DNA from: Elusimicrobia bacterium GWB2_63_22
GTDB lineage: Bacteria > Elusimicrobiota > Elusimicrobia > Elusimicrobiales > UBA9959
Assembly (NCBI GenBank): GCA_001799735.1
Contig: MGUA01000024.1
Span: forward strand, 1-64,000
Length of the DNA stretch: 64,000 nt
Direction: 5' to 3'
In this document: positions 2,201-6,175 of the stretch, piece by piece
Position numbering within the stretch: position 1 is the stretch's first letter
How the letters are laid out: every line of letters begins with the position of its first letter
Translations under genes and position numbers: made by a program
Notes under the pieces: generated by a model
What the model saw: the letters and a program-made list of their open reading frames with translations, nothing else
What the model was told of the DNA's origin: nothing
The model's database searches: none

Positions 2201-3307
2201 TTACTCGCCCCTGTAGGCCTTGGTCATCCTCTCGGGGGAAACCACCGTGTAGCCGTTGTCGGCCAGCCATTTCACAAGGCGTTTGGAGGCGATGCGGCTC
2301 TGGTCGTGGATGTCGTGCATCAGCACTATGCCCTTGCCGCGCTGCGCGATGAGGGCTACGGTCTTGTTAAAAAGTTCTTCGGGGTTCTTGGTGGACCAGT
2401 CCAGCGTGTCTATGGTCCAGCCCACCGGCACCAGGCCGAGCTCGGAATCCAGGGCCCTCACGGCCTCCGGGGTGATGATGCCGTACGGCGGGCGGAAGAA
2501 ACCTGGTTTGCGGCCCGCGGCTCCGGTGATGGAGGCGCTCACGCCGCCCAGCTGTTTGACGATCTCGGCGGTGGAAAAAACGGTGAAAGGCTTGCCGGCC
2601 TCGTTGGCGTGCCAGTAGCCGTGCACGGCTATCTCGTGGCCGTCGGCGGCCGCTTTTTTTACGCGCTCTTTGCCGGCGGTTCCCAGCTTGGAGCCCAGCA
2701 CAAAGAACACGGAAGGGGCGTTGGCGGCCTTCATGGCGGCGGAGACCTCTTCGGTCAGCGGGCCGGGGCCGTCGTCGAAAGTCAGTATCACTTCGCCCTT
2801 TTTCAGAAAGCTGTCGGACTGCACCAGGAAGGGCACGTTGTTCTTGACGTAGTTGATCTTGCAGTAGCCTTCCTTTATCGGGACGCCGCGCTCTTCGCGC
2901 GCCACGGTGCCGCCGTAGAAGCCGAAGGCGTCGTTGAGCTCCTCGGAGACCCGGAAAGAGACCTGCCCGCGGTCCCGCATGTCGCCGCGGTACGGCTCGC
3001 CCAGCTCGCGCGCTATGGCGCGGTTAAGGGACTGCAGCCTGGCGCGCAGGTACTGGCCGGAGGCCGAGGCCTCCAGGAACTGCGGGCTGCCCTGGGGTGA
3101 GACAAAAGCGATATCGGAATAGAGCTTCAGCGCGGAATTCACCTCGTCATGTTCCGCTATCATGCCGATCACGTCCACGGCCGGGGGATTGGCGGCGGGG
3201 ACTTCCACGGAGGCGGGCTCTTTGGGGAGCTGCAGGTCCTGGGCTGAAACCGGATTGAAAGAGGCGATCGAGAGCAGTGAGACCAAGAAGGCGAAGGGTT
3301 TGTGCAT
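2201..3307 (-). CDS. secreted polysaccharide deacetylase (NodB domain)
   Basis: Exported carbohydrate esterase family 4 protein, 368 residues, predicted to remove N- or O-acetyl groups from chitin-like or peptidoglycan polysaccharide. Residues 1-23 form a signal peptide ending near VSAQD. The NodB homology domain occupies about 170-360: motif 1 TFDDGP (catalytic Asp and metal Asp), motif 2 HGYWH (metal His pair), motif 3 RPPYG, and late motifs DTLDW and LMHDIH. The region of about 25-165 is a separate, unrecognised N-terminal domain. The ATG is preceded by CAGGAGAAAATA, a good ribosome site. A GC-rich upstream element (3365-3396) is shared with other exoenzyme genes. Confidence 0.93.
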   Translation of the reverse strand: MHKPFAFLVSLLSIASFNPVSAQDLQLPKEPASVEVPAANPPAVDVIGMIAEHDEVNSALKLYSDIAFVSPQGSPQFLEASASGQYLRARLQSLNRAIARELGEPYRGDMRDRGQVSFRVSEELNDAFGFYGGTVAREERGVPIKEGYCKINYVKNNVPFLVQSDSFLKKGEVILTFDDGPGPLTEEVSAAMKAANAPSVFFVLGSKLGTAGKERVKKAAADGHEIAVHGYWHANEAGKPFTVFSTAEIVKQLGGVSASITGAAGRKPGFFRPPYGIITPEAVRALDSELGLVPVGWTIDTLDWSTKNPEELFNKTVALIAQRGKGIVLMHDIHDQSRIASKRLVKWLADNGYTVVSPERMTKAYRGE

Positions 3308-3431: not shown

Positions 3432-3527
3432 TCAGCCGCCGGTGATGAAATACCAGATCAGCAGGGCGATGATAAGGGAGAGCACCTTTATCTGCCAGTT
3501 GCGCGAAAAGAGTTCGGGGATATTCAT
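3432..3527 (-). CDS. 31-residue YbbR/CdaR N-terminus-like membrane miniprotein
   Basis: Short ORF coupled to cdaA through an ATGA overlap (cdaA stop 3524-3526, this ATG 3525-3527). The 31-residue product starts MNIPELFSRN, continues WQIKVLSLIIALLIW and ends YFITGG. This matches the conserved N-terminal anchor of YbbR/CdaR proteins (NW-x-LK-LSL-x-A-LLW), the membrane regulators of the c-di-AMP synthase CdaA. It then stops, with no YbbR repeat domains and no frame continuing them. It could be a micro-regulator holding or modulating CdaA in the membrane, or the remnant of a truncated cdaR. Overlap and motif retention favour an expressed gene. Confidence 0.7.
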   Translation of the reverse strand: MNIPELFSRNWQIKVLSLIIALLIWYFITGG

Positions 3528-4345
3528 GCTTTATCCTGGGCCCGCGGCGGCTGGGCGGGAGGCGGCGCGTCGGCGCGGGGCGACTTGCGCAGCAGGGTCT
3601 TCTCCGCTTTGGAGCGGTACAGCTGGTAGAGCATGGCTTCCAGGTCCTTGGGGTCCGCGTGCTGCTGCAGCTTGCCGTTGCGGGCCACGGACAGCATGCC
3701 CGTCTCTTCGGAAACGATGATGATGATCGCGTCGGCGACCTCGCTCAGGCCAAGGGCGGCGCGGTGGCGCATGCCGAGGATCTTGGAGAGCTCCTGCTGT
3801 TCGGTCAGCGGCAGGATGCAGCCGGCGGCCACCAGCCTGTTGTTGGCGATCACGGCCGCACCGTCGTGCAGCATGGTGTTGTCGTGGAACACGGTCAGCA
3901 GCATCTCCTTGGAGACCTCGCCGTTTATCCGCACGCCGGTCTCCACGATGTCGCGCAGGGCCATGTCCTGCTCCAGCACGATGAGCATGCCCATCTTTTC
4001 GGCGGCCGCGGTGCGCACGGCCTCCATCATCTCGCCGATAAAGCGGTATTCCTGGGACACCATCACGCGGCCCAGCGGGTTGGAGCCGATGTTGGCCAGG
4101 GCGAAGCGGATCTCGGGCTGGAAGACGACGATCAGGAGGAAGATACCGGCCAGCCAGAACTGCTGCATCAGCCAGACGGTGGCGCCGAGGTGCAGGAACT
4201 TGGCCAGCGAGGTGAGCACGGCGAGGATGAACACGCCCCAGATGACCTGCATCGCCCGCGTGCCTTTGAGCAGCAGTATCAGCCGGTACACTATGTAGTA
4301 TACGGCCAGGATGTCGGCGACGGTTTTAAGGTAATGCAGGTACAA
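3524..4345 (-). CDS. cdaA: diadenylate cyclase CdaA
   Basis: Membrane-bound c-di-AMP synthase of 273 residues, joining two ATP into cyclic di-AMP, a messenger controlling potassium, osmolyte and cell-wall homeostasis. Three hydrophobic segments occupy about 10-28, 34-52 and 60-76. The DisA_N catalytic domain (about 90-240) has the DGA motif at 161-163 and the RHR motif at 193-195. An Ala/Pro-rich, charged tail follows. It lies 24 bp downstream of ftsH in the same direction, an arrangement common in other phyla. The next ORF, overlapping its stop, looks like the anchor of its usual partner CdaR. Confidence 0.95.
   Translation of the reverse strand: MYLHYLKTVADILAVYYIVYRLILLLKGTRAMQVIWGVFILAVLTSLAKFLHLGATVWLMQQFWLAGIFLLIVVFQPEIRFALANIGSNPLGRVMVSQEYRFIGEMMEAVRTAAAEKMGMLIVLEQDMALRDIVETGVRINGEVSKEMLLTVFHDNTMLHDGAAVIANNRLVAAGCILPLTEQQELSKILGMRHRAALGLSEVADAIIIIVSEETGMLSVARNGKLQQHADPKDLEAMLYQLYRSKAEKTLLRKSPRADAPPPAQPPRAQDKA

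Positions 4346-4369: not shown

Positions 4370-6175
<1,806 letters not shown>

Follow-up and report, generated by a model that had tools for sequence, protein, structure and literature searches.

A 31-codon open reading frame directly behind cdaA is a real gene in Elusimicrobia bacterium GWB2_63_22, and purifying selection acts on its amino-acid sequence. The gene lies on the reverse strand at 3432..3527 of the window, i.e. the 64,000-nucleotide stretch of contig MGUA01000024.1 analysed here. As judged by sequence comparison, its product, which we refer to as micro-CdaR, is probably a one-helix subunit of the diadenylate cyclase CdaA, a homologue of the N-terminal segment that anchors the CdaA partner CdaR (YbbR) in the membrane, and would set how CdaA assembles or how active it is, with no extracytoplasmic sensor domain.

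The cdaA gene itself (3524..4345, reverse strand; 273 aa) encodes a membrane diadenylate cyclase (c-di-AMP synthase): the protein scores 214.5 bits against TIGR00159 (cut-off 188.8) and also matches PF02457 (DAC) and PF19293 (CdaA_N). Micro-cdaR starts within the cdaA stop codon, its ATG (3527-3525) and the cdaA TGA (3526-3524) forming the ATGA overlap (3524..3527, reverse strand) that the initial annotation had read there, and it ends with a TGA at 3434-3432. The translation, MNIPELFSRNWQIKVLSLIIALLIWYFITGG (from the ORF list and window sequence), is predicted to comprise a single transmembrane helix and a short positively charged N-terminal stretch. A Shine-Dalgarno-like AGGA, read in the sequence 6 nt 5' of the ATG (3534..3537, reverse strand), is weak evidence for initiation, with such matches present in 26 of the 39 distinct relatives described below. 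Neither Pfam nor NCBIfam holds a model covering micro-CdaR, and comparison of the 31 residues with Pfam, NCBIfam and the PDB yielded no meaningful match.

The mini-ORF is present directly behind cdaA, with its stop at 31–33 codons, in 69 of 69 related loci collected through CdaA, namely 30 from the window genus and 39 public records, mostly titled Elusimicrobia, the two sets overlapping; together they amount to 39 distinct DNA sequences and 36 distinct proteins. The start position shifts between relatives, with the -1 overlap found in 12 of the 39 distinct sequences and the other starts located 4–115 nt past the cdaA stop, while the protein stays the same. Within the window genus a profile search recovered one convincing copy per genome, adjoining cdaA, and the ORF is intact wherever the cdaA locus is intact and fully sequenced; the sole genome of the genus lacking a match (G004) has a cdaA that ends at the contig end. 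For the same 30 window-genus sequences, the codon-aligned dN/dS of micro-CdaR is 0.114 (codon bootstrap 0.06-0.20) and that of CdaA is 0.116, with overall values for micro-CdaR of 0.11–0.13. The conservation and purifying selection that the initial annotation had proposed to look for are thus both present, selection being as strong as on the cyclase.

Two readings that would deprive the ORF of a protein function were weighed against these data. The conserved element could be RNA or DNA – an operator, a leader or a coupling hairpin – with the ORF incidental, and the ATGA overlap, which suggests coupled translation, is compatible with this. However, identity at codon positions 1, 2 and 3 is 82, 93 and 58% across relatives, pN/pS in the two other forward frames is above 1 (1.1 and 2.9), and in distant lineages the protein segment turns up again, fused in frame; this coding signature refutes the RNA/DNA reading, to which we give practically no credence. 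It is hardly more probable that micro-CdaR is a functionless, decaying remnant of a truncated cdaR, as might be supposed from Firmicutes relatives in which the segment is followed by several YbbR domains, absent here. The 93 nt past the stop are 26% identical, which is background level, as compared to 78% within the ORF; the downstream sequence is therefore unrelated between species and holds no remains of YbbR. Simulated neutral drift gives P < 1e-7 for 38 such ORFs staying open. The dN/dS of 0.11, the near-invariant length and retention across the whole phylum, with decay only where cdaA decays too, refute the remnant reading.

The YbbR domains were looked for in the rest of the genome as well. 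PF07949 detected none in the window genome at E<=10, nor any within the ORF. As PF07949 missed several YbbR fusions, a phylum-specific YbbR profile (A3) was built; its positive controls reached 1e-30 to 1e-37 in seven genomes, and it matched neither the window genome nor the relatives tested. By both models, then, the earlier proposal of an anchor without periplasmic YbbR domains stands. Loss or frame disruption of the ORF in close relatives, or a full cdaR elsewhere in the genome combined with decay of the ORF, had been named as the outcomes that would speak against it; what we found was no YbbR domain with either PF07949 or A3, and an ORF intact in every window-genus relative whose cdaA locus is itself intact and fully sequenced.

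The segment itself carries the motif N-W-x-x-K-x-x-[AS]-x3-[AS]-x3-W, which agrees with the membrane segment at the N terminus of Firmicutes CdaR; the corresponding segment of Acetoanaerobium CdaR, LLNQNFKMKIFAVIFAFFMWIYV, follows the same pattern. Among 133 distinct separate and fused sequences the core residues are N in 125, W in 96, K in 128, A/S in 133, A/S in 133 and W in 128, counts that are partly built in at positions 1, 5, 8, 12 and 16, which the core-picking pattern limited to small residue sets. Of 114 distinct separate segments, 99 carry the strict form N-x3-K-x2-[AS]-x3-[AS]-x3-W, which none of 193 CdaA bodies contains. When a profile made from the short proteins only was run with 1813 decoy frames, the top matches from outside the phylum were the CdaR N-termini of Acetoanaerobium, Listeria and Anoxybacillus, individually weak (E 0.04-0.3) and yet at the expected N-terminal residues. 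In natural fusions to CdaA the DAC domain is immediately followed by this motif, its register unchanged. These weak but well-placed matches, along with the shared register, agree with the initial assignment of the ORF to the CdaR-type N-terminal membrane segments, and we consider homology with the CdaR/YbbR anchor, as part of our overall explanation, to be likely.

To place the window in the context of its phylum, we sampled 295 Elusimicrobiota genomes: DAC domains are present in 194 and Pfam YbbR domains in five, the latter figure resting on PF07949, which by itself underestimates the YbbR fusions of the phylum. A total of 151 cdaA loci were then classed by profile hit and by reading every locus. 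The anchor is a separate gene with nothing further attached in 109 loci (median length about 32 aa, counted from the closest Met), the C-terminal tail of CdaA in 22, and the middle part of a CdaA-helix-one-YbbR-domain fusion in eight; ten loci have cdaA without any anchor (families f5, f10 and f22, and one of f15), and in two a decaying micro-CdaR lies beside a broken cdaA. Twenty of the tail fusions belong to family f7 (among L166-L190), and two to genus g6 of family f1, the window's own family (L133 and L164). Given the different linkers and the distance between these families, the fusion apparently arose at least twice independently. Genome G063 has two CdaA genes, of which one is fused to helix and YbbR domain and one precedes a separate micro-CdaR (L100, L130). 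At four of the anchorless loci, in families f5 and f10 (L139, L147, L148, L193), glmM comes directly after cdaA and the partner gene is absent, i.e. these are natural deletions. Retention of cdaA without an anchor in f5, f10 and f22 means that micro-CdaR is not indispensable everywhere.

Is micro-CdaR dedicated to CdaA, or is it an independent small membrane protein merely co-transcribed with it? We regard the latter as improbable. Binding to CdaA is made probable by the natural fusions and by published contacts between CdaR and CdaA, which are reported to lie between the membrane domains of the two proteins (PMC10243994, PMC6368335, PMC8573169). Against an independent protein stand the fusions themselves, as well as co-loss and co-decay with cdaA. 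In the sister family f2 of the same order, 24 listed genomes (G037-G060) show no cdaA match, and no convincing micro-CdaR match was found by profile there either. In G140 and G145, cdaA is frameshifted and micro-CdaR stops at or beside the conserved Trp, and these bacteria seem to be losing c-di-AMP synthesis. These two genomes (L192, L194; family f15) are reduced, at about 0.7-0.8 Mb.

The genes 3' of the cdaA–micro-cdaR pair also vary among genera while the pair stays constant, which again argues against mere co-transcription. In the window the next ORF (2201..3307, reverse strand), as read from the sequence in the ORF list, is polysaccharide-deacetylase-like, and neither glmM nor a YbbR protein. 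The glmM gene of this genome is on a different contig, and no glmM turned up at a distance of up to 900 nt among the window-genus loci, so the cdaA–cdaR–glmM operon is not seen there. Outside the window genus glmM comes after the pair in 41 of 82 separate loci, giving cdaA / micro-cdaR / glmM, which is the Firmicutes order.

Returning to micro-CdaR as a CdaA subunit, the fusions suggest how the two might be arranged: the same-register motif behind the DAC domain would place the partner helix beside CdaA, and the cytosolic location of that domain would orient the helix with its N terminus inside. In 75% of the separate micro-CdaRs the N-terminal side carries the higher net charge. An AlphaFold2 model of CdaA and micro-CdaR from a close relative (L022), in which the cdaA stop was read as Trp solely to join the chains in silico, with no readthrough claimed, places a helix at 287-306 (pLDDT about 70-80), its information being limited to the helix and its confidence; a fold search with this model gave only the DAC domains of solved CdaA/DacA structures among the best hits. 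No enrichment for the membrane region emerged when mutual information was computed for micro-CdaR against CdaA, at an effective depth of 42 that is too shallow for this purpose.

Small residues every four positions suit helix–helix packing. In what we regard as the most likely mechanism, micro-CdaR would be translated from the cdaA mRNA by coupling and enter the membrane in the N-in orientation; its A/S face (every fourth position), with the N-W...K end cytoplasmic and the final W at the outer side, would pack on the membrane helices of CdaA. Packing could fix the arrangement of CdaA protomers in the membrane, and hence how readily two DAC domains meet face to face to make c-di-AMP. In this scheme we infer expression, topology of the separate form, binding to the CdaA membrane domain and the effect on CdaA assembly or activity.

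The strongest rival to this proposal is that of a structural or biogenesis subunit, in which CdaA requires the helix for its insertion, stability or obligate assembly while activity is never varied. The constant 1:1 linkage, the 22 fusions to CdaA, the lack of a sensor domain and a constraint equal to that of CdaA are all compatible with such a role, which we consider possible, though doubtful. CdaA persists without the helix in f5, f10 and f22, however, and CdaR mutants of Firmicutes and Bacteroidota have altered c-di-AMP levels with CdaA not abolished (PMC11520302, PMC9259658). Sequence alone cannot separate regulation from pure biogenesis. The initial annotation had suggested a minimal transmembrane regulator: the minimal form is upheld by a conserved anchor-only gene and the failure to find YbbR, while 'regulator' expresses a presumed role.

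Published work describes the mode of action of CdaR on CdaA as unknown (PMC8573169, PMC10243994), and CdaR is reported as an activator or a repressor depending on species and conditions (PMC10243994, PMC6368335, PMC8573169). One study in S. aureus saw no conclusive effect of YbbR on DacA (PMC6368335). CdaRs bear several extracytoplasmic YbbR domains (PMC10243994). Like CdaR/YbbR of Listeria, Bacillus and Staphylococcus, micro-cdaR directly follows cdaA, often precedes glmM and encodes the N-terminal membrane pattern seen in Acetoanaerobium; unlike the CdaRs compared, which are 400-452 aa long, it ends right after the helix. Streptococcal CdaA-CdaR fusions (PMC10243994) similarly unite cyclase and partner in a single chain, but these are large, whereas the Elusimicrobiota fusions add a bare helix (22 loci) or a helix with one YbbR domain (eight loci). 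The conservation of micro-CdaR, as strict as that of CdaA, suggests that the membrane helix is the essential part of CdaR. More tentatively, in a generalisation that we doubt slightly more than we believe, the helix may be the functional core of CdaR and belong to the CdaA machine as an integral fourth helix, with YbbR domains as optional add-ons that lineages gained or lost, and this phylum mostly making c-di-AMP with the bare helix, as a microprotein or as the CdaA C-terminal tail.

KdpF, CydX and AcrZ exemplify very short proteins of one helix that serve membrane enzymes or transporters as subunits. Micro-CdaR would resemble this type as a very short, predicted one-helix protein accompanying a membrane protein; it differs in that the partner is a second-messenger cyclase, and we claim no sequence relation. 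We found no description of an anchor-only micro-CdaR in the open-access literature searched, within which it is new as a variant of the known partner CdaR. Having no Pfam or NCBIfam model, this small-protein family would be useful for annotation of Elusimicrobiota, and structural studies of full-length CdaA gain a minimal partner in micro-CdaR. Finally, one phylum offers a natural series (helix with a single YbbR domain, bare helix, fused helix, none) in which helix and sensor domains come apart, making it testable whether the helix alone changes CdaA assembly and output.

Directly 5' of cdaA in the window is an ORF that, as read from the sequence in the ORF list, encodes an FtsH-type protease (4370..6175, reverse strand). 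FtsH is among the DacA partners in a 2026 S. mutans interactome (PMC13289029), and the adjacency may be a coincidence. As for c-di-AMP turnover, the candidate phosphodiesterase of the window genome is a DHH-family protein; a search for PgpH-type 7TM-HD proteins gave none. The genome also contains a c-di-AMP riboswitch (RF00379, 58.8 bits; L203, G000:C23:4730-4889) directly 5' of a long multi-helix permease/transporter-like ORF, an arrangement which indicates that c-di-AMP is probably in use as a signal in this bacterium.
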